20,217 nucleotides of DNA from a virus, in the IMG/VR virus record IMGVR_UViG_3300028025_005681, positions 1 to 20,217 of that record. One strand, 5' to 3'. This document shows positions 2,035 through 17,142 of this stretch, one piece after another. A program made the translations under genes and the position numbers. Each line of letters starts with the position of its first letter. The first letter of the stretch is position 1. The notes under the pieces were generated by a model that made no database searches, was not told the DNA's origin, and saw only the letters and a list, made by a program, of their open reading frames with translations.

Positions 2035-3219
2035 ATGACATCCACTCCTAACATGAATTTATTTCAGCCAGCTCCTGGTAGTCTTGGGCCACAGTGGGCA
2101 ACGGACTTAAACACAAACTCTGACACCATTGATTCCCATGACCACTCTGTAGGACGGGGTGTGCCTATCACGCCTAGTGGCATGAACATCAACACAGATT
2201 TTAGTATCCAAAGTTTCTCTTTATTGAATGCCAAAAGTGTAAAGTTTGTGAACCAAACCAGCTCACTTGCAACCAGCGGTGCCTTGGACGTTTATATTAA
2301 AAACGGAGATCTCTTTTATGCCAATGGTGGAACCGATGTCCAAATAACCAATGGAAACAGCGTAGCAGGAACATCAGGAAGTATTTCAGGCTTAGTGAGC
2401 CCTGCAAGCTGTGTGTTTTCAGGCCAGCAGTTCAGCTTTTTTTATGACGCTGGCACCTATGCAGACTTGCGCTGTCGTGACCTGACTTTATCCACTAATG
2501 GGGGTAGCACACTTAAAGTCACCCAATCTGTAAGTGCGACTTACACGTTGACCTTGCCTGAAAGCCCACCTGCAACGTCAACACAACTTGTGACCATGAG
2601 CACAACTGGGACTTTATCAGCCCCTGCAAGCCCAACTCTAGGCACCACGGCTAGTGTGTTGACTTGGCAAGGCACAACAGAATCCGTGAGTCCCACATCA
2701 GGAAGCGTTGTCATTTCTGGCGGTGTGGGCATAGCTAAGACTGTTCGAGTCGGTGGCAGTGTGGTGGCAACTGGAACAAACACATGCTCTGGTCTGACCG
2801 TGACAACTAACGGTGCTCTTATCACAGGCAATGTGGGAATTGATGGAGAAATTTCTGCTACAGAAGATATTTCTACAAACGCTAATTTTATAGCATCGGG
2901 TTATTTGCAAGCAAGTTTAGGAATCATAACCGACAACACAGAAACCTATACTAGGGTTTTAGAAGGAACAATAACAGACCTTTTATTAAATGTTTCTCAT
3001 GGTTTGCCATCAGACTGTCGAGTGATCAGCGCAACAGGTATTGTCGCAACCGTAGATGGTGCAATTGGCGGATATAGTATGGATACATCGAATGGATTGT
3101 ATGGATTCAATGGTCTTATTGTGAATGCAACCACAGTTCGAGGCTATAACGGCAATGACGGGCTAGCTCTTAATAAATTTTATAGAATCACTCTTATTTA
3201 TACAAAAACATCGGGGTGA
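2035..3219 (+). CDS. tail fibre protein (394 aa)
   Basis: The first 70 residues match a widespread phage-fibre attachment segment: a Pro/Gly turn, then GPQWATDLN (residues 18-26), IDSHDHS (32-38), GRGVPI (40-45) and an NIN...NAKSVKF stretch. The middle is Ser/Thr/Gly-rich, beta-repeat-like sequence. It includes SGSVVISGGVGIAKTVRVGG near residues 222-241, a motif typical of trimeric fibre shafts. The C-terminus (about 319-394) begins VSHGLPSDCRVISATG and ends in a beta-rich tip, probably the receptor-binding part. The start is ATG 2035 with AAAAGG seven bases upstream. It lies immediately before the nozzle gene and probably attaches to the tail hub. Bacterial surface binding is inferred. Confidence 0.82.
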   Translation: MTSTPNMNLFQPAPGSLGPQWATDLNTNSDTIDSHDHSVGRGVPITPSGMNINTDFSIQSFSLLNAKSVKFVNQTSSLATSGALDVYIKNGDLFYANGGTDVQITNGNSVAGTSGSISGLVSPASCVFSGQQFSFFYDAGTYADLRCRDLTLSTNGGSTLKVTQSVSATYTLTLPESPPATSTQLVTMSTTGTLSAPASPTLGTTASVLTWQGTTESVSPTSGSVVISGGVGIAKTVRVGGSVVATGTNTCSGLTVTTNGALITGNVGIDGEISATEDISTNANFIASGYLQASLGIITDNTETYTRVLEGTITDLLLNVSHGLPSDCRVISATGIVATVDGAIGGYSMDTSNGLYGFNGLIVNATTVRGYNGNDGLALNKFYRITLIYTKTSG

Positions 3220-3223
3220 TATT

Positions 3224-6200
3224 TTGCCACTACAAAAACAGCTCGTACCTGTTGTGGTTCCACAGGGAATCAACACTAAAATCAACACAACTCTGCTACC
3301 CATGCAACAAGCTGCTCAGCTTGATAACTTCAGACTTGATAAACAGGGTGAGATAAAAAAGCGTTTTGGCTTTGATCCCATTGCTTCACTTCCATCAAAC
3401 TTTAATCCTGAAGCATTAATAGACAACACCTATATAGCCAAAAGTGTTTTTGATTTTAATGGCCGTATGCTTTGCGTTGCCAAATTCCAAGACAACACGA
3501 TCACAGATCCTTTACAGGATCCAGACATTTATAGGCTTTTTGATTATGTGTCCTCTAGCAATACATTTTTAGACAGAGGCATCACAGGCAATTTCACTCA
3601 TGAACTCAAAGAGCTGACAAGCAGTGACACCGAAGAGGTTATGCCAAGCTGGGCAAGAGTAGGAAGTGTGAATGTGTGTGGCTTTATCCGCTACAACTCT
3701 TCTAACACCACCACTGGCCTTATGGGTGGCTTCCTGAACGTTTATGACGCACAGACAAGCCAGCTCATAACAACTTTCAATTTAGGTTCTACTGTAAGGC
3801 GTGTGAAAGTTTGTTATAGAAATCCAAACTCTGTTTATATATTAACCAACGCCGTAGCATCTTCTACACTCATAGCCCGTGTGTTGGACGTATCTCTTTT
3901 GACTCTTAGCTCCAGTGTAAACACGGCAACAAATTTAAGTATCAGTACACCTAACTTTGACTTAAAATTCCATCCACTCACTCAAAAAGCACTGGTCTTT
4001 TACAACACAGGAGCTGCCACAGTTCTGGGCTATCTGACCAGCACAGGTTTATTAGATAGCTCTCCCACTCCTTTAGTCATGAATGCCCTTAATGGCAGTG
4101 GAGCTGTGCATCTTAATACAATAGACAGTCAGCCAGAGTTAGGGCGTATCACTGCTATATGGGCCAGTGACGTTGCCCCAAATTTCATAGTCTCATGGGC
4201 TTACTTGAACTGGAATTGGACGGGGATTCCATCCATTGGAACCCAAAACCACACAGCACTTGTGAGACAAATCACATCAGATAGCGCTTTTGTTTACTGT
4301 GAACTTTCTGCTGCGCTTGTTTCCAACCAACCCATAAACTCTAGGGTTTTGATTTGGCAACCTAGCCTTGGCCCGTGGACACTTTGGGATACCGTGCGCT
4401 CTGTGGGTCTAGCTAGTGAAGCTCTTTTCAGCCAATTCATAGTAGCTCTAGCTCATGAATCCAAATTGCAGCCCACGACATTCCTCTATGATTCTTCGAG
4501 GAAAAGAATTGTCGCAAAAATGGCGCAATCAAAATCTGGGGGCCTTGCTGGAGCAATAGGGGCCACAGGCACCTCTGGCTATACTTTGATACCCTCATGC
4601 CTTCCTTCAATCAATTTGACCCTTTTAAATGATTCATTGTCTTATGAATTGATGTCTATAACCAAGTCAGGAACTATAAGCCAAGGTGGTGAGCTTTTTG
4701 GTACCCGCAATATTGCAAGTTTTAAGTTTACAAAGAGCGTTAGCCCACAAGCCATAAAGTCCAGTTCTCTTTTTCTCGCAGGAAGCCAAGTTGATCAATG
4801 GGACGGGGTAACTCTGGCTGAAGCTGGCTTCTATTTATCACCAGAGAACGTGATATCAGCCACAGACACGGGTGCTACCACAACCGCAGGCGTGTATGGT
4901 TGGGCTGTAACCTATTCGTGGGAAGACGCTTATGGGAAAAAATGGGAGTCCTTTGCAGCTCAAGGCACAATAACACTGACCGCAAGTCAGCAGATTAAAC
5001 TCACCATTCCAACCTTGCGGCTCACATCTAAATCCAATGTGGTTATCAACACCTACCGCACAACTGTCAATGGGACACTGCTGCAACGCTGTGACGCTGG
5101 CAATGCCACTGCTGCGACTATCACTTACACCCCAAGCTCACCACGGTTCAATGATAAGAGCGTGGATTCTATTGATCTGTGGCTCAATATTCCTGTTTCA
5201 GCCAGTGATATTGAAATAGAAACACGGGCAATCCTTTATACAAGCGGTGGGGAACTAGACAATGATCCACCGCCTAGCTGCACACATTTATCTATTTATC
5301 GTGGGCGCATTGTCTTTACAGGCCTAGAAGATAGAAGATATATAGGCTATTCCAAGCTATTCACTCCAGACAGTGCTCCAAACTATAACAACACGTTTAT
5401 TCTGGGCATTCCAGACGATGGGGAACCTGTAGTCGCAAGCCAACAACTTGACGATAAGCTCATAATCTTTAAGCCCACAGGACTTTACGCTTTAGCTGGT
5501 AGTGGGCCTCTAAACACAGGGCTTCAAGATGACTTTGACACACCTGTATTAGTAGCCACCGATGTGGGTTGCATCAGTCCACAGTCTATTGTTCTTTATG
5601 CTAACGGTGTTTTGTTCAAGTCTGGTAAGGGTATCTATGAGCTTAGCCGATCGATGCAGGCCAGCTATATCGGTGCCCCTGTCGAGGCATACAACACATT
5701 GGATGTCACAGGAAGCGTTTTAATAGATAACCGAAATGAAGTTCGGTTCACAACAAACGACAAAACTCTTGTCTATAACTATTTTTTCCAACAGTGGATG
5801 ACTTACAGCTCACTTCCTTCATTGACCTCTAACTTAGTCAATAACACACACACCATTTGCTTAATAGACGGTAGAATAGTGCAGGAAACATCAGACTTTT
5901 TGGACGGTGGCTCTTACATCAAAAGCACCTTAGAGACAGGTTGGCTTGCGTCAAGTCTCCAAGGCTTCCAAAGGGTATATAGGTTTTTATTCCTTGGGCA
6001 AAGCATAACAAATACAAATCTGTCCGTTGCTTTGTCTTATGACTATAATTTGTTTACCAGTGAATCTTTTTTAATCACTTCTCAAAACATGTTCCCCATA
6101 GGCCCACTTGGAGATTCAGGCTTTGGAGTTGGCCTATTCGGTGGCCCTTATAGTGGGGTTGCACAATTTATGGTGCTGCCTAGCGTACAAAAATGTGAAG

Positions 6201-11883: not shown

Positions 11884-12456
11884 ATGAAACAAAAGATTAA
11901 GCATGAAATTAAGCAGACACCCATTGAACAACTCCATATGTATGCTCGCAATGCAAGAACTCATAGCGGTGAGCAGGTTAAGAGAATTGCAGAAAGCATC
12001 CAAGAATTTGGATTCCTGAATCCAATCCTTGTGGATAGTGCAAGTAAAGAAATTATTGCAGGCCATGGAAGGCTACTAGCAGCACGTGAGCTAGGGCTAG
12101 AAACAGTTCCCGTTGTCTTCTATAACCACCTGACAGATACGCAAAGGCGTGCTTACACGCTTGCAGACAATAAGCTGGCTTTGGATGCAGGCTGGGACGA
12201 GGATTTGTTGAAGCTAGAGCTAGATGAATTGAAGCTAGAGGATTTTGATCTAGACGTGATTGGCTTTGAAGGCTTTGATTTTAATACAATAAATAATGAT
12301 AGTGAGTTTAAACCAAATTTACCCAAAGAGGATAATGAAGATAGGAAAGGTATTGATTATGAGCAAAAATTTGAAATGATCATAATTGCAGAATCAGAAC
12401 AGCAAGAATTATTTGAAGAAATGACATCAAGAGGAATTTCATGCAAGATTTTATAG
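11884..12456 (+). CDS. ParB-like N-terminal-domain protein (190 aa)
   Basis: Residues about 10-105 form a ParB/Srx-type domain: PIEQLHMYARNARTHSGEQV, AESIQEFGFLNPILVD, then IIAGHGRLLAARELGLETVP with the G60-H-G-R63 core motif, and finally RAYTLADNKLALDAGWDE. The rest is an acidic linker (LDELKLEDFDLDVIGFEGFD) and a short alpha/beta tail (KFEMIIIAESEQQELFEEMT then RGISCKIL). In phages such domains commonly sit next to a DNA methyltransferase. Here the partner is instead an ABC-ATPase/GNAT protein, whose start codon overlaps this gene by 16 bases. A role in recognising DNA sites or binding CTP is known for relatives and is inferred here. The Shine-Dalgarno sequence is weak (TGGAG, 14 bases upstream). 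The last third of the gene is markedly more AT-rich than the first two. Confidence 0.82.
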   Translation: MKQKIKHEIKQTPIEQLHMYARNARTHSGEQVKRIAESIQEFGFLNPILVDSASKEIIAGHGRLLAARELGLETVPVVFYNHLTDTQRRAYTLADNKLALDAGWDEDLLKLELDELKLEDFDLDVIGFEGFDFNTINNDSEFKPNLPKEDNEDRKGIDYEQKFEMIIIAESEQQELFEEMTSRGISCKIL

Positions 12457-13538
12457 TTAATTTAAATTCTGAAATTCAAAAAAGTTTTTTATGTATCAAA
12501 GCAGCTAATAGCCAAGATATAGATATACATAAAAAGTCTGAATTTAAAAAAATAATTCGTGCAGATATAGACTCCCCTTATCATATAGGGTTAATAGCTG
12601 GGAATAGTGGGAGTGGGAAAACGACTCTAGCTAGAGAATGTTTCAAAGGTTATTTCAAAGAACAACCAATTTTAAATTTAAATAAATCTATTATAGACCA
12701 ATTTCCTAAACATTATTCGTATGAAGACTGTCAAAAACAATTAAGTTTTATAGGCCTGACTTCTGTTCCTTGTTGGATACGTCCAGCTTATACATTGTCT
12801 AATGGGCAACGTTTTCGAGCAGAAGTCGCTTTACAATGTGCTTTTGCTGGTGATGACGTTGTTGTTATAGATGAGTGGACGAGCGTAGTTGATAGAACGG
12901 TGGCAAAAGTCATGTCTCATAGCATTCAAAAATTCGCTAGAAAAATGAATAAAAAAATTGTCCTTCTTTCATGCCACCATGACGTTATTGATTGGCTTCA
13001 GCCAGACTGGGTTATTGATACCAATACAGATGAATTTGAATGTCGGAGGGGGCGAAGTCATGACAGAAAAGAACAACTCAACTTTACCATTAGAGAATTA
13101 CAAAACGGAAAATATTGGAAAAATTTTAGCCGTTATCACTATTTAAGTCAAAATCTGCCAGGAGGAAAAAAGTTTTATTATGGGCTATTCCATAAATACA
13201 CTCCAATAGGATTTATGTGTTTTGCTAATTATGTATTTGGTAGACGAAATATATTGCATTCCAATCGTATAGTCATTTTGCCTGATTATTGTGGATTAGG
13301 ACTTGCTAAAGAATTTGTCAATAAAGCGTGTCTTGATATGGCTTCAAAAGGTTATGATATAAGAGAAAAAAATAGTAGCTATCCAAGATATAATCAATTA
13401 AAAAATGATCCTAATTGGATTTTATTGTCTACCGATTTTAAAACACCTAGATCTTCATCTGCCAAAGAAAGCAGAACCATAAGACAAAGAAACAATGTTC
13501 GTTTTTGGTCTTGGAAATTTATTGGCAATCAAGTTTGA
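12441..13538 (+). CDS. ABC-type ATPase fused to GNAT/Mom-like acyltransferase domain (365 aa)
   Basis: The N-terminal ATPase half has all the ABC elements in order: Walker A GNSGSGKT (residues 54-61), signature LSNGQ (119-123, a variant of LSGGQ), Walker B VVVIDE (140-145) followed by a D-loop-like SVVDR, and the switch histidine in LLSCHHD (175-181). No membrane segment is present, so it is not a transporter. The C-terminal half (about 215-365) reads FSRYHYLSQNLPGGK, YYGLF, IGFMCF and NRIVILPDYCGLGLAKEFV. The last is a GNAT motif-A strand and acyl-CoA pyrophosphate loop, with D282-x-x-G285-x-G287 where most GNATs have R/Q-x-x-G-x-G/A. I recall the 'HYL...YYG.F....Gf' layout from Mom-type and related phage acyltransferases. 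The start has GAGG at 12431-12434. Base composition is strongly AT-rich. The gene converges on the minus-strand gene with 10 bases of overlap. Its substrate is unknown; DNA is the leading guess. Confidence 0.82.
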   Translation: MQDFIVNLNSEIQKSFLCIKAANSQDIDIHKKSEFKKIIRADIDSPYHIGLIAGNSGSGKTTLARECFKGYFKEQPILNLNKSIIDQFPKHYSYEDCQKQLSFIGLTSVPCWIRPAYTLSNGQRFRAEVALQCAFAGDDVVVIDEWTSVVDRTVAKVMSHSIQKFARKMNKKIVLLSCHHDVIDWLQPDWVIDTNTDEFECRRGRSHDRKEQLNFTIRELQNGKYWKNFSRYHYLSQNLPGGKKFYYGLFHKYTPIGFMCFANYVFGRRNILHSNRIVILPDYCGLGLAKEFVNKACLDMASKGYDIREKNSSYPRYNQLKNDPNWILLSTDFKTPRSSSAKESRTIRQRNNVRFWSWKFIGNQV

Positions 13539-13894
13539 CTTTGAACCGTGAGCTTTGCTAACCATTTCTCATTGCCTATAGCATTTATAGCTAAGTCCCA
13601 ACCCCCTAGTAGAAACTTCCTTTTATATTTCGGATAGCCTTTTACAGCCATGCTTTCTGCAAAGTGTAGGAACTCTTCCTGCGCATAATCGTAGGGCACT
13701 AGCTCGCTTTGGTAGTAGTGATACACTTTGTCACCATGAAAGTCTTTTTCAGAGTGAACATAAGTGTCATAGCCTTTTAGTTTGAGCCAAAAGGCTGCAA
13801 GCTCTTTAGGCCCTAGCTGGTAAGCATATTCAGCCTTCCTGGCAATGCTTAGTGGCTGCTCCTGTTTTTGCTGTGGTAAATTGTCTATAGCCAT
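13529..13894 (-). CDS. minus-strand protein of unknown function (121 aa)
   Basis: The likely start is the ATG complementary to 13892-13894, with GGAGA about 11 bases upstream on the minus strand. A longer frame to 13966 exists, but its extra residues come from sequence that codes on the plus strand. The protein begins MAIDNLPQQKQEQPLSIARK. It has a compact aromatic-rich body: AYQLGPKELAAFWLKLKGYD, YHYYQSELVPYDYAQEEFLH and YPKYKRKFLLGGWDLA. It is soluble, with no signal or membrane segment. I do not recognise it. It converges with the ABC/GNAT gene and diverges from the packaging cluster. It is the second gene in the window to run against the late transcription direction. Confidence 0.68.
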   Translation of the reverse strand: MAIDNLPQQKQEQPLSIARKAEYAYQLGPKELAAFWLKLKGYDTYVHSEKDFHGDKVYHYYQSELVPYDYAQEEFLHFAESMAVKGYPKYKRKFLLGGWDLAINAIGNEKWLAKLTVQSQT

Positions 13895-14231
13895 GAAATT
13901 GAAATCTCCAAAAGAAACCGCAGAGGAGTTTATGCAATCTAAAATCAATACAAAGTTTAAAAACATACAACTGGCTGAAAGTCTATTGATGGGGCTAGGC
14001 GCAATCCTTCATAGCGAAATGCGGCATATGCAGACAGAAGCTAAAGATGGGCCTTTGAGCCACCGATCCTATGCCAAACTTATGGCACTTTCGAGTCAAG
14101 TTTCCAACTATGCAAAAGCTAGTCGAGATTTGGTCACAGCAGATACTCTTAGTCAATTTAATGACGATGACTTGGACGCTGCTTTAGAATTGGCTACTGG
14201 CAAACTTAGAAGTGTGGGGCTTTTGTTGTGA
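13893..14231 (+). CDS. small helical protein before the packaging genes, possible small terminase (112 aa)
   Basis: The product (MKLKSPKETAEEFMQSKINT...) is predicted to be nearly all helix, with an acidic C-terminus (FNDDDLDAALELATGKLR). It is the first gene of the cluster that ends in the large terminase. That position is where a small terminase subunit is expected, but I see no recognisable DNA-binding helix-turn-helix, so this is only a suggestion. The start is uncertain. ATG 13893 has a poor ribosome binding site and shares CATG with the start of the minus-strand gene. ATG 13932 (residue 14) has AGAGGAG three bases upstream, which is strong but unusually close. The stop overlaps the next gene's GTG start (GTGA). 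Confidence 0.68.
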   Translation: MKLKSPKETAEEFMQSKINTKFKNIQLAESLLMGLGAILHSEMRHMQTEAKDGPLSHRSYAKLMALSSQVSNYAKASRDLVTADTLSQFNDDDLDAALELATGKLRSVGLLL

Positions 14232-14710
14232 CTGTGTATAAAATAGACTCAACAGTTTTACCCTTTGTTTATATAGACAACTATTCTCAAAAAGACATCC
14301 CATTCATTTGTGCAACGTGGTCAAACTCTTTTCGGCATTCCCGGATAGGAAGCCTTTTATCAGTCCGTGAGTTTAAACGTTTCCACTATGAGTTAATGGC
14401 TGCTGTACTGGCCTACCCTAGCACTCAAGTCAGAGTTGTGAGACTCAAAGAAGATGATACAAGTCTATTGTCTTACGCAGTCTATGACGTGTGTGAAAGT
14501 GTTCTGCATTACACCTACACTAAATACGAGTACCGCAAGAATGGACTGGCTTGTAATTTGTGCTTAGGGAAAAACATAAAATTTGTGTCTATGGAATCTG
14601 ATTTGAAGCTTCCAAGCTTTCTGTGGCATTTAAAGCACCACCCCTATTTTCTTTTTGGAGTTATGCAATCCTATGGCTACAAAACCTGTCTTGACCGTCC
14701 AAAAGACTGA
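14228..14710 (+). CDS. GNAT-fold protein of the packaging cluster (160 aa)
   Basis: Residues 30-38 (TWSNSFRHS), a long helix at about 46-62, a beta strand with VRVVRL, and then LLSYAVYD form the front half of a GNAT-like fold. LHYTYTKYEYRKNGLACNLC (residues 93-112) is a good match to motif A, with the acyl-CoA loop R103-K-N-G106-L-A108. The C-terminal part (FLWHLKHHPYFLFGVM) is aromatic and probably packs against it. Small GNAT-like proteins are often found near phage terminase or portal genes; their function is unknown. The start is GTG 14228, overlapping the previous stop (GTGA) with GGGG about eight bases upstream; GTG 14234 is an alternative. The acyl acceptor cannot be told from the sequence. 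Confidence 0.68.
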   Translation: MTVYKIDSTVLPFVYIDNYSQKDIPFICATWSNSFRHSRIGSLLSVREFKRFHYELMAAVLAYPSTQVRVVRLKEDDTSLLSYAVYDVCESVLHYTYTKYEYRKNGLACNLCLGKNIKFVSMESDLKLPSFLWHLKHHPYFLFGVMQSYGYKTCLDRPKD

Positions 14711-14969
14711 AGTGACTCAAGTGACTGAAGCGACTCAAGTGACTGAATCATCACCTGAATCAAAGCGTTTTATCGAGGCAATTTATTTAGCCCAAGCTGT
14801 TCAATATGCAGGCACTATGCGTACATTTTTTAGGTTTGACGATGGTTTTGAGTTAGAGAAATGTGACGGCAATGTTATTGTGACTTCAAAAGATAAGGGC
14901 TATGGCAGGTATTTAGAAATTGGATTCTCTAACATTAGTGCAGTGCTGTGGAATTGTGGACAAGGCTAA
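14673..14969 (+). CDS. small protein with Thr/Glu/Val repeats (98 aa)
   Basis: I prefer ATG 14673; the upstream in-frame TTG at 14655 is the alternative. GGAG at 14657-14660 fits neither start ideally. The N-terminal 30 residues are a polar linker built of hexapeptide repeats (TEVTQV, TEATQV, TESS). After it come a helix (SKRFIEAIYLAQAVQYAGTM) and a small beta domain (RTFFRFDDGFELEKCDG and VIVTSKDKGYGRYLEIGFSN). It overlaps the GNAT gene upstream by 38 bases and the terminase gene downstream, so all are probably translated together. I do not recognise the family. Its place directly before TerL makes a packaging accessory role plausible. Confidence 0.6.
   Translation: MATKPVLTVQKTEVTQVTEATQVTESSPESKRFIEAIYLAQAVQYAGTMRTFFRFDDGFELEKCDGNVIVTSKDKGYGRYLEIGFSNISAVLWNCGQG
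14705..14747 (+). repeat. 18-bp tandem repeat in coding sequence
   Basis: GACTGAAGTGACTCAAGT (14705-14722) is followed by GACTGAAGCGACTCAAGT (14723-14740) and by a partial third copy, GACTGAA (14741-14747). The period is a multiple of three, and a 9-bp sub-period is also visible (GACTGAA/GACTCAA). The encoded sequence is a flexible Thr/Glu/Val/Gln linker. Confidence 0.75.
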
Positions 14970-16425
14970 GCTCACAGACTTTGAAAAGAAAGTCTTACTC
15001 GAATACTACCGCAGACATAAGCATCTGCTTAAAGGGAAAAACCCTGCGGTGCTTCTCAAGGCCAGTCTATTCCAAAGCCAATCAGAGTTTATTTATGACA
15101 GCAGTGAGCTAGCCTTAGCCTGCTGCACCCGTAGGGCTGGCAAGTCTCATGCCTGTGCAGTGGGCCTACTGACAAAGGCCCTAGACACGCCTAATAGCGA
15201 ATGCCTCTATATAGGCTTAACAAGACTCACAGCCAAGAATATTATGGTTCCTAACATTGAGCGTCTACTCAAACGTTTCGATGTCGATTATGAATTCTAT
15301 AAAGCCGAATTGAGGTTTGTCTTTAAAAATAAGTCTCAAATAGTCTTGACGGGTGTGGGTGATAGTATCCGTGGCATTCAAAAGATGTTAGGCGTGGCTT
15401 ATGACTTAGTGGTCATTGACGAGGCGCAGAGCTTTCCAGAGCACATCAAGCCACTCATTTACGAAGTCCTGATGATAACCGTAGCGGAGCGCAAAGGTAA
15501 GATCCGCATGATAGGAACCCCCGGCATGATTGCCAGTGGGTTTTTTTATGATGTAGCCCATGGTAGAGAGCTGGAAAGTCAGTGGGCGACTTATCACTGG
15601 TCATGGACAGAGAATGCTGTTGTTAAAGATCTGATACAAGAGCAGGTAAACAGAATGGTGGCATCTAGCCCCCAAGTTGTGGATACACCTGCTTATAAAC
15701 GCAACTATTTGGGAGAATGGGTGGCCGACAATGACGCACTTGTATATAAGTTTACTGCTGATAAGAACCTTATATCCTGTAGCCAAATGGGTGAGCGTCC
15801 TATATGTGATGCTTATATTCTCGGAGTGGACTTGGGTTTTGTTGATGCAACAGCTTTTTGTATTGTTGGTTGGGGGCCTCACAATGAACGGATCTATATT
15901 CTGGAAAGTTATAAAGCTAGTGGGCTTATTCCATCCGATATAATCAAAGTTATTCAATCCTATCATGACAAATATGAGAATAAAATAATCAAAACTGTTG
16001 TTGACGAGGGTGGTCTAGGAAAGTCCATCGCCGAAGAATGGCGTAGGCGTTATATGGTTTCAGTCATTCCTGCAAAGAAGACAGAAAAAAGATTATTCAT
16101 TGACCATGTGAATGGCATGCTCATTCAAGGCCACATCCAAATTGCAAAAGAAGAAAACCCTGAATTGATAGAAGAAATAAAAAACTTAGTGTGGCTCGAT
16201 TCAGACAGGAAGCATGAGCACCCTGCATGCGATAACCACATTTTAGACGCTATGCTTTATAGCATAAGAGAATCAACAAGTTACTTATGGTCTCCTGAAG
16301 TTATAATGGATCCTATTAAAGAACAAGAGCGCAGATTGTTAGATGCCCACATAAAAGCGGTGCAACAAAAATCGAGTCTATTGGATAGATACATGGAAAG
16401 TGGTGACAATGAAGGATGGCACTGA
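14956..16425 (+). CDS. terL: terminase large subunit (TerL)
   Basis: This is the DNA-packaging motor ATPase and genome-cutting nuclease. Numbering from GTG 14956 (489 aa), the features are: Walker A-like TRRAGKS (58-64); Walker B LVVIDEAQ (about 151-158) with catalytic Glu; motif III MIGTPG (185-190); and an RNase-H-fold nuclease with acidic residues at GVDLG (D292), VVDEGG (D350/E351) and HILDAMLYSI (D431). The length is normal for a phage TerL. The start is unsettled: an in-frame TTG at 14920 and a GTG at 14938 are also possible, and none has a strong Shine-Dalgarno sequence. The gene overlaps the preceding 98-aa gene and, at its end, the small acidic gene, which implies co-translation. The portal gene that often follows TerL is absent here. 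Confidence 0.93.
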   Translation: MDKAKLTDFEKKVLLEYYRRHKHLLKGKNPAVLLKASLFQSQSEFIYDSSELALACCTRRAGKSHACAVGLLTKALDTPNSECLYIGLTRLTAKNIMVPNIERLLKRFDVDYEFYKAELRFVFKNKSQIVLTGVGDSIRGIQKMLGVAYDLVVIDEAQSFPEHIKPLIYEVLMITVAERKGKIRMIGTPGMIASGFFYDVAHGRELESQWATYHWSWTENAVVKDLIQEQVNRMVASSPQVVDTPAYKRNYLGEWVADNDALVYKFTADKNLISCSQMGERPICDAYILGVDLGFVDATAFCIVGWGPHNERIYILESYKASGLIPSDIIKVIQSYHDKYENKIIKTVVDEGGLGKSIAEEWRRRYMVSVIPAKKTEKRLFIDHVNGMLIQGHIQIAKEENPELIEEIKNLVWLDSDRKHEHPACDNHILDAMLYSIRESTSYLWSPEVIMDPIKEQERRLLDAHIKAVQQKSSLLDRYMESGDNEGWH

Positions 16426-16624
16426 AGATATTGACGATGATTATTTTATTTATGAGTGGCCCGATGAATTTGGGAATGGGCAAAGAATCAACGAATATAG
16501 AAGCCTGAGTAAAGAAGAAAAAGTAAATTATTTAAAAGAATATGAAAAAAATAAAATTGAAATTTTATTAGAGTACATTGAAAATTTAAAACATAAACAA
16601 AATTTAGAAAACAAAAAATCATGA
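16409..16624 (+). CDS. small acidic protein coupled to the sigma factor (71 aa)
   Basis: The gene begins inside the end of terL; ATG 16409 is preferred, with GGAAAG upstream, and GTG 16400 is an alternative. It ends ATGA with the sigma-factor start. The N-terminus is very acidic and aromatic (DIDDDYFIYEWPDEFG). The C-terminal 40 residues form a Lys/Glu-rich helix of coiled-coil character (LSKEEKVNYLKEYEKNKIEI). Base composition is extremely AT-rich: I count 9 G/C in the last 60 bases. I do not recognise it. Its tight coupling suggests it works with, or controls, the sigma factor, but this is inference from position only. Confidence 0.65.
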   Translation: MKDGTEDIDDDYFIYEWPDEFGNGQRINEYRSLSKEEKVNYLKEYEKNKIEILLEYIENLKHKQNLENKKS

Positions 16625-17142
16625 CTACTCAAGAAGATATTCAATGGATTCATAAGCTTGTGTCAGCGGTGATCGCAGACCACAACTTGAAACCAGTCCT
16701 TAGAATTTCTGTTTTTGACAAAGAAAATCTCATTGGCGCAGCTATGGAAGGGTACGTTAAAGCATTGAAAGCATTTGATGAAACAAAAGGTATACCTTTT
16801 AAAAAATACGCTTCATATAGGATTAAGGGTTCGGTTTTGGATGAGGTGCGCAAAGCTATGGGAGATGAAAGGATAAAGAATAAAAAGCCTAAACTAATTT
16901 ATGATTATGATTTTGGACTTTTCAAATACCAAGAAGACCCTTTTATTTGGAAGTTTAAGTATGACAATGAAATAGACAATTTTATAGAAAGCTTACCTTT
17001 TAAAAATACGGATAAACAAATTTTGTTTTTTAGACTCACAGGTATGAATCAAAAACAGATTGCACAGAAGTGCGACTGTTCTCAGTATTGGGTATCTATA
17101 AGATTAAGACATATCCAAGGGTTTTTAAAATGTTTTTTATGA
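16621..17142 (+). CDS. phage-encoded sigma-70 family factor, FliA/sigma-28-like (173 aa)
   Basis: Region 2 lies at about residues 33-80: ENLIGAAMEGYVKALKAFD, then GIPFKKYASYRIKGSVLDEV, then R77. The 'F..YA..RIKG..LDEvR' pattern matches FliA-type and sporulation-type sigma factors closely. Region 4 lies at about residues 127-170: DKQILFFRL...MNQKQIAQKCDCSQYWVSIRLR, a helix-turn-helix that would read the -35 element. Between them is a short, charged linker with no clear region 3, and region 1.1 is absent. At 173 residues it is shorter than FliA (about 240). It would bind host RNA polymerase core and direct it to phage, probably late, promoters. It has no visible Shine-Dalgarno sequence and depends on ATGA coupling to the small acidic gene. 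It lies in an AT-rich island. Confidence 0.85.
   Translation: MTTQEDIQWIHKLVSAVIADHNLKPVLRISVFDKENLIGAAMEGYVKALKAFDETKGIPFKKYASYRIKGSVLDEVRKAMGDERIKNKKPKLIYDYDFGLFKYQEDPFIWKFKYDNEIDNFIESLPFKNTDKQILFFRLTGMNQKQIAQKCDCSQYWVSIRLRHIQGFLKCFL

Follow-up and report, generated by a model that had tools for sequence, protein, structure and literature searches.

The window, by which we mean the whole 20,217-base stretch analysed here (an IMG/VR virus record classed as linear), encodes a ParB-like adaptor protein and, in a gene that overlaps the first by 16 nt, a fusion of an ABC-type ATPase with a GNAT acyltransferase domain. We read the pair as a phage DNA-modification cassette in which the GNAT domain would acylate DNA, the C-terminal tail of the ParB-like protein would dock on the fusion, and ParB would recruit it; we give this reading a probability of roughly 0.6. 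The guilt-by-association argument for DNA modification is strong but indirect. DNA is the proposed substrate because related ParB heads exchange partners with known DNA-modifying enzymes, and because ABC-coupled GNATs have been predicted to acylate a DNA base (Iyer 2013, as cited in the part of PMC7824862 that treats them, where phage pT24 is named).

The gene pair in the window and its relatives

Features of the window (coordinates, strand, description) are as follows.

11884..12456, +, ParB-like adaptor gene, 190 aa: ParB_N head, linker and partner-specific tail (PF02195, E 1.7e-10; phrog_620, E 2e-55)
11905..12171, +, ParB_N head, residues 8-96, with the NTP-binding P-motif arginine R63 (GHGR) (Pfam domain range and motif position; role of the arginine from PMC12704722)
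12355..12453, +, ParB tail, residues 158-190, proposed docking element for ABC-GNAT (tail profile; stand-alone form in a ParB-less branch)
12441..13538, +, ABC ATPase-GNAT fusion gene, 365 aa, phrog_11143 (ORF, PHROGs, AlphaFold)
12600..12626, +, Walker A, GNSGSGKTT, residues 54-62 (motif positions, alignment)
12795..12809, +, ABC signature, LSNGQ, residues 119-123 (motif positions, alignment)
12858..12878, +, Walker B with catalytic Glu145, VVVIDEW, residues 140-146 (motif positions, alignment)
13080..13535, +, GNAT domain, residues 214-365 (AlphaFold and VIA-align, Z 14.9 to RimI; pLDDT 90.6 for the GNAT domain alone)
13137..13142, +, invariant His233-Tyr234 (HY), shared with Mom (alignments, profile alignment)
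13281..13307, +, acyl-CoA pyrophosphate loop, PDYCGLGLA, residues 281-289 (alignments)
14920..16425, +, large terminase subunit (TerL), 1.4 kb downstream of the cassette, the usual neighbour of such modules (phrog_2, E 1e-35; PF17288)

Both genes lie exactly where the preliminary description had placed them. The window also encodes virion proteins and, shortly after the large terminase, a sigma-70 region 2-like factor (16621-17142, +; PF04542 barely above cut-off). Two ORFs between the cassette and the terminase (13529-13966, -; 14228-14710, +) gave no Pfam or PHROGs family match except one sub-threshold Pfam match. As had been noted from the sequence alone, no methyltransferase was recognised beside the pair among the window proteins scanned against Pfam and PHROGs.

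ParB_N was the sole Pfam domain matched in the ParB-like protein, with an E value above the cut-off in significance; phrog_498 was a second strong PHROGs match (E 4e-52), and a TIGR00180 match fell under its cut-off. The protein shares ParB_N and the P-motif arginine with the ParB of ParABS partition systems, but the HTH, the dimerisation domains and a parA partner are all unmatched, and a partner-specific tail is found instead. We rejected a canonical partition function: no HTH domain like that of chromosomal ParB could be detected, and none of the window proteins scanned (a subset of the window genes, in a record that is possibly a fragment) matched ParA. The P-motif arginine is linked to NTP binding, and different ParB-fold fusions bind ATP, CTP or GTP, a bacterial ParB-acetyltransferase fusion binding GTP (PMC12704722), so the NTP specificity of the window protein is not predictable. 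The earlier suggestion that ParB selects sites has no direct support, since no chromosomal-type HTH was detected, and this gap in site recognition counts against the cassette reading.

The fusion protein matches phrog_11143, a family with no assigned function, over residues 11-364, which is its full length and includes both domains (E 4.8e-78). The ABC-type ATPase noted earlier in the N-terminal part was borne out by its Walker A, signature and Walker B motifs together with a D-loop (SVVD at residue 148) and a switch histidine (His 179); a Q-loop was not recognised by eye. D144, E145 and H179 are invariant across 52 sequences and the Walker A lysine is conserved. In the GNAT part of the same 52 sequences W226, H233, Y234, R276, P281 and G285 are invariant, and the acyl-CoA loop is conserved. 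The best Pfam evidence for this part was a match to Acetyltransf_1 under the cut-off (E 0.0027), and PADLOC matches cover parts of the ATPase only.

An AlphaFold model of the fusion, built with 51 relatives, has two confident domains (pLDDT 89.4, pTM 0.84), of which residues 1-213 form an ABC nucleotide-binding domain (Z about 15) and residues 214-365 a GNAT domain (Z 14.9 to RimI, 5isv). Since ABC transporters dominated the PDB search with the whole model, the GNAT domain was also folded and searched alone. It has both canonical features of the GNAT superfamily, the fold and the acyl-CoA loop, and its closest solved structures among the best 50 PDB matches listed are protein and polyamine N-acetyltransferases (RimI, SpeG, NatC and others).

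A transporter role, as implied by annotations reading “ABC iron siderophore transporter”, was rejected: the ATPase is fused to a GNAT domain, and no permease adjoins it in the annotated loci inspected. ABC-GNAT pieces in MT939242.1, MK448681.1 and their relatives are annotated as DNA polymerase or iron siderophore ABC transporter, and these are probable misannotations.

Relatives of the fusion turn up in 72 phage records (including pT24), in no fewer than 594 IMG/VR stretches and in 338 from prokaryote contigs, so the gene pair is not a chance arrangement; many of the prokaryote-contig relatives are prophage-like by gene order. We inspected 82 IMG/VR loci, six of which are cut off upstream. 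ParB lies directly upstream of ABC-GNAT in 70 of the remaining 76, mostly overlapping it, so an objection from lack of co-occurrence does not stand. Pasteurella, Leptospira, Streptococcus and Gordonia/Rhodococcus phages share this order, and cultured carriers of an intact cassette include Pasteurella phage Pmp13, Leptospira phages LE3 and LE4 and Gordonia phage Sisko. In a sub-branch comprising P12024S, PX29, pT24, VmeM-32 and some IMG/VR loci we found no ParB and no recognisable tail, and the adaptor is therefore not universal. Some phages carry two nearby copies of ABC-GNAT with ParB upstream of the first only (L075:869-1975 and 2912-4135; L079 likewise, L080 partly). Another locus has two ParB genes whose heads are 84% identical (L239:2028-3056 and 4219-4887), the first with a long N-terminal extension and the second adjoining ABC-GNAT.

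Relation to Mom and exchange of enzymes behind the ParB head

The preliminary description had likened the C-terminal domain to Mom-type acyltransferases. A Mom-like role is plausible, as the same kind of ParB precedes true Mom genes, but the domain lies outside the Mom family: PF25680 did not match the window fusion at E values up to 0.1, and family membership was rejected on that basis. The same profile matched Mu Mom at 2e-75 and the Mom of phage Y8A at 1.8e-55. A weaker claim, that the two are specifically related, survived comparison with RimI and Acetyltransf_3. The HY pair (H233-Y234) is present in 52 of 52 ABC-GNAT sequences and is invariant in a five-member Mom alignment as well, and profile comparison co-places HY and the following Arg of the two families with 55-70% probability. 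Mom against RimI reached 2.7% and Mom against Acetyltransf_3 0.1%; among the three profiles compared with Mom, the ABC-GNAT domain matched best. The ABC-GNAT domain itself matched the RimI profile at 88.6%, above its match to Mom. In fold searches Mom (8bv8) was not among the best 50 PDB matches listed, an absence given no weight here; a viral Mom model ranked sixth in BFVD.

On these comparisons the ABC-GNAT domain appears to sit between canonical GNATs and Mom. It has in common with the Mom family (PF25680, Mu Mom, PDB 8bv8) membership of the GNAT superfamily, HY after the first helix, a ParB before the gene and the pre-terminase slot; it differs in keeping the canonical loop PDYxGLGLG, which is absent from the Mom alignment, in its fusion to an ABC domain and in the tail of its ParB. 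Structure prediction thus upheld the GNAT fold, but the best solved matches are ordinary protein or polyamine N-acetyltransferases, which in part tells against the function first proposed. Overall, a DNA-modification module standing in a methyltransferase's place was right in outline, the link to Mom was over-stated, and neither site choice by ParB nor the suggested opening or flipping of DNA by the ATPase is supported.

The case for DNA modification comes from the enzymes found behind related ParB heads. True Mom genes (PF25680) have the same kind of ParB upstream in 79 of 82 IMG/VR ORFs, and ParB followed by a genuine Mom is also found in Psychrobacter phage Y8A and Microbacterium phage Antuna. 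In HHTV-2 a related head precedes a TET-associated glycosyltransferase (PF20691); in phiFN37 one precedes a TGT homologue whose neighbour is a queuosine-precursor transporter. The head and partner genes (Mom, glycosyltransferase, TGT) mostly overlap, and other related heads are fused to a DNA methyltransferase (e.g., pOW20-A). A tree of 109 ParB heads gives 40 partner changes, a soft count given its 133 columns and long branches; well supported branches force at least five for ABC, at least ten for Mom and at least eight for the methyltransferase label, which denotes a long ParB ORF and includes at least one (L239) with no methyltransferase domain. In agreement with the tree, heads beside different partners share up to 75-89% identity. 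The heads of Psychrobacter phages Y8A and pOW20-A, for example, are 81% identical, and the slot before TerS/TerL holds Mom in the former and a methyltransferase in the latter.

For the window ParB head, the nearest relatives are long ParB proteins from the search for ParB-methyltransferases (66% over 119 aa). TerL lies at most 2.5 kb downstream in 43 of 77 ABC, 40 of 61 Mom and 39 of 48 methyltransferase loci, all of which are lower bounds. The nearest heads and the shared position, mostly just upstream of TerL for all three module types, support the claim that the fusion stands in a methyltransferase's place. Phage ParB-DNA methyltransferase fusions (phrog_498; PMC12704722) accordingly resemble the window cassette in head and in pre-terminase position; they differ in that a SAM-dependent enzyme is fused to ParB, whereas the window has an acyltransferase paired through a tail. 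The Dpd 7-deazaguanine system (DpdA TGT and the ParB-like ATPase DpdB; PMC12839542) likewise joins a ParB-fold NTPase to a base-modifying enzyme, but it is a bacterial restriction-modification system with a different enzyme, chemistry and organisation.

The exchange of partners bears on whether ABC-GNAT might instead acylate a protein, such as the terminase, a host polymerase subunit or a defence protein, with ParB and its tail serving as a protein-binding cofactor and the link to Mom and methyltransferases reduced to a shared late-gene position. The GNAT fold is closest to protein and polyamine N-acetyltransferases, RimI is the best profile control, the module adjoins the terminase, and host RNA polymerase is a known target of phage GNATs such as Rac (described in PMC7824862). 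Protein acylation would, however, make it hard to explain why closely related ParB heads turn up with Mom or a DNA methyltransferase in place of ABC-GNAT, or why the module occupies the mom position in a Mu-like phage (described below), and we consider it unlikely.

The position upstream of TerS/TerL, often immediate for all three enzyme types, would also fit a module that marks a packaging or replication site, with ParB clamping near pac/cos or an origin and local acylation controlling the terminase. NTP-dependent clamping of DNA is a known activity of ParB heads. NTP binding has also been described in ParB-fold fusions (PMC12704722). This idea is improbable in view of the Mu-like phage, where the module lies at the right end and not by the terminase, and of T4-like and Bacteroidetes phages, in which ABC-GNAT is away from the terminase within the stretches seen.

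Partner-specific tails and split genes

The tail of ParB, not the ParB domain, tracks the ABC-GNAT fusion. A profile built from the last 48 residues of ABC-type ParBs matched 110 of 110 ParBs beside ABC-GNAT and none of 77 beside Mom, and a Mom-type profile gave the reverse pattern (77/77 beside Mom) with no crossover; many of the tested sequences had also trained the profiles. Of 87 long ParB ORFs, 84 match neither. Out of sample, the ABC-type profile trained without prokaryote contigs was found in 38 of 38 ParBs from such contigs.

A separate branch of ABC-GNAT, in which no full ParB gene was found, carries the tail by itself. In 24 of 25 loci the ABC-GNAT start is overlapped by a tail-only ORF, about 50-85 codons long from stop to stop, and in 25 of 25 IMG/VR loci a PurN-like gene (phrog_9240) directly follows or overlaps its 3' end. 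The two features lie at the following positions.

L104:3244-3372 (Porphyromonas phage007a), L103:3172-3369, and in L412-L436: stand-alone tail mini-protein before ABC-GNAT
L103:4481-5098, L104:4499-4972, and in L412-L436: PurN-like formyltransferase after ABC-GNAT

The tail-only ORF is annotated as an anti-CRISPR candidate in Porphyromonas phages. A Mu-like Porphyromonas phage of this branch has the module at its right genome end and transposase and MuB-like genes at the left; in Mu the right end is the location of com and mom. Several IMG/VR members of the ParB-less branch are also near a contig end.

Because the tail is matched to its partner and also occurs alone, it is likely a docking subunit of the ABC-GNAT enzyme, and the head an exchangeable recruitment device. 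It is highly improbable that the upstream tail ORF chiefly couples or activates translation of the enzyme gene and is no enzyme subunit, on the model of the small com gene of Mu, which overlaps mom and regulates its translation (PMC6483171): the tail does always lie just before or overlap the enzyme start, but its protein sequence is conserved across phages and prophages of distant hosts and is confined to its own enzyme type, which a role purely in coupling or at the RNA level would not need.

The window ABC-GNAT gene is a continuous fusion. Separate ORFs for ABC and GNAT were found at ten loci, two of which (L065 and L066) agree in lengths and spacing, probably as near copies of each other. 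The GNAT ORF is in the -1 frame with an overlap of about 100 nt in nine of the ten, and in seven of those nine a run of A9-10 or T9 marks the domain boundary at the overlap's upstream end. Positions of overlapping -1 frames are as follows.

L062:7573-7685, L065:1577-1671, L067:7573-7682, L070:3423-3511, L073:7597-7697, L074:7582-7679: overlapping -1 frames
L005 and L102, near 4576-4676: overlapping -1 frames

The boundary run of L062 is the one homopolymer of 8 or more in its 11.4 kb, and in the stretch examined for L062 and L070 the GNAT frame contains no ATG, GTG or TTG start codon. These loci likely use programmed -1 frameshifting or transcriptional slippage, which would yield ABC alone as well as ABC-GNAT. 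Sequencing error is disfavoured as a general cause, since all nine changes are in the -1 direction and seven have a boundary run, though single contigs may be errors.

Proposed mechanism and its implications

Under the DNA-modification reading, the GNAT domain would bind an acyl-CoA-type donor and pass on its acyl group, for which the likeliest acceptor is an exocyclic amine on a DNA base. The ABC domain would probably dimerise and position ABC-GNAT on DNA in an ATP-dependent manner. ParB would serve as an NTP-binding adaptor head whose short C-terminal tail docks on ABC-GNAT and brings it to the phage DNA at a late stage of infection, ahead of packaging. That such heads also occur with another tail for Mom, or fused to a methyltransferase, suggests that head, tail and enzyme may be exchangeable, and the benefit would be protection of phage DNA from restriction.

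A broader version, in which an NTP-binding ParB head forms an exchangeable platform coupled by tails or fusion to a methyltransferase, Mom, a glycosyltransferase, a TGT or ABC-GNAT, is possible, at a little under even odds; it would include a new acylated base, PurN-like processing in some phages and control of ABC:GNAT stoichiometry by -1 frameshifting in some lineages. PurN needs an Asn preceding its HPSLLP motif. The PurN-like proteins found here have no such Asn (the segment reads LGYHPSLLP or similar), and for that reason the partner gene is weak ground for supposing that the added group may bear a formylatable amine.

A small PUA/ASCH-like gene (phrog_625) converges on ABC-GNAT at six loci (L003:7085-7366, L190:2873-3184, L192:6076-6369, L231:1651-1926, L057:7552-7812 and L196:5967-6320, all on the minus strand). 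The ASCH protein YqfB hydrolyses N4-acylcytosines (PMC6972931), and by analogy a link of the phrog_625 gene to acylated bases is conceivable. The idea that it encodes an N4-acylcytosine amidohydrolase was set aside and not used, as its Pfam matches were sub-threshold only and the window's reverse-strand ORF did not match it.

The ABC-coupled GNAT system predicted by Iyer 2013, for which the passage of PMC7824862 on these proteins gives Tenacibaculum phage pT24 as an example, belongs to the same family and has the same two domains as the window fusion. In pT24 no ParB was detected adjoining and the domains are split by an in-frame stop, whereas the window gene is continuous and paired with ParB. 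That passage of PMC7824862 mentions no ParB adaptor, tail, mini-protein or frameshift. The ABC-GNAT family was thus predicted earlier; the partner-matched tails, the stand-alone tail, the variant at a Mu-like genome end and the frameshift were not found in the literature searched, nor was biochemistry or mass spectrometry on any family member.

If the proposal is correct, many phages and prophages carry a DNA modification of unknown chemistry, and cultured phages with the cassette would offer a direct route to new DNA chemistry. A ParB-derived adaptor would be a general part of phage modification systems, which would help to account for the frequency of ParB-like genes among phages lacking a partition system. 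The stand-alone tail also hints at what the very small gene labelled a candidate anti-CRISPR in Porphyromonas phages may do, and the cassette as a whole would show how phages swap anti-restriction enzymes yet keep the recruitment head.
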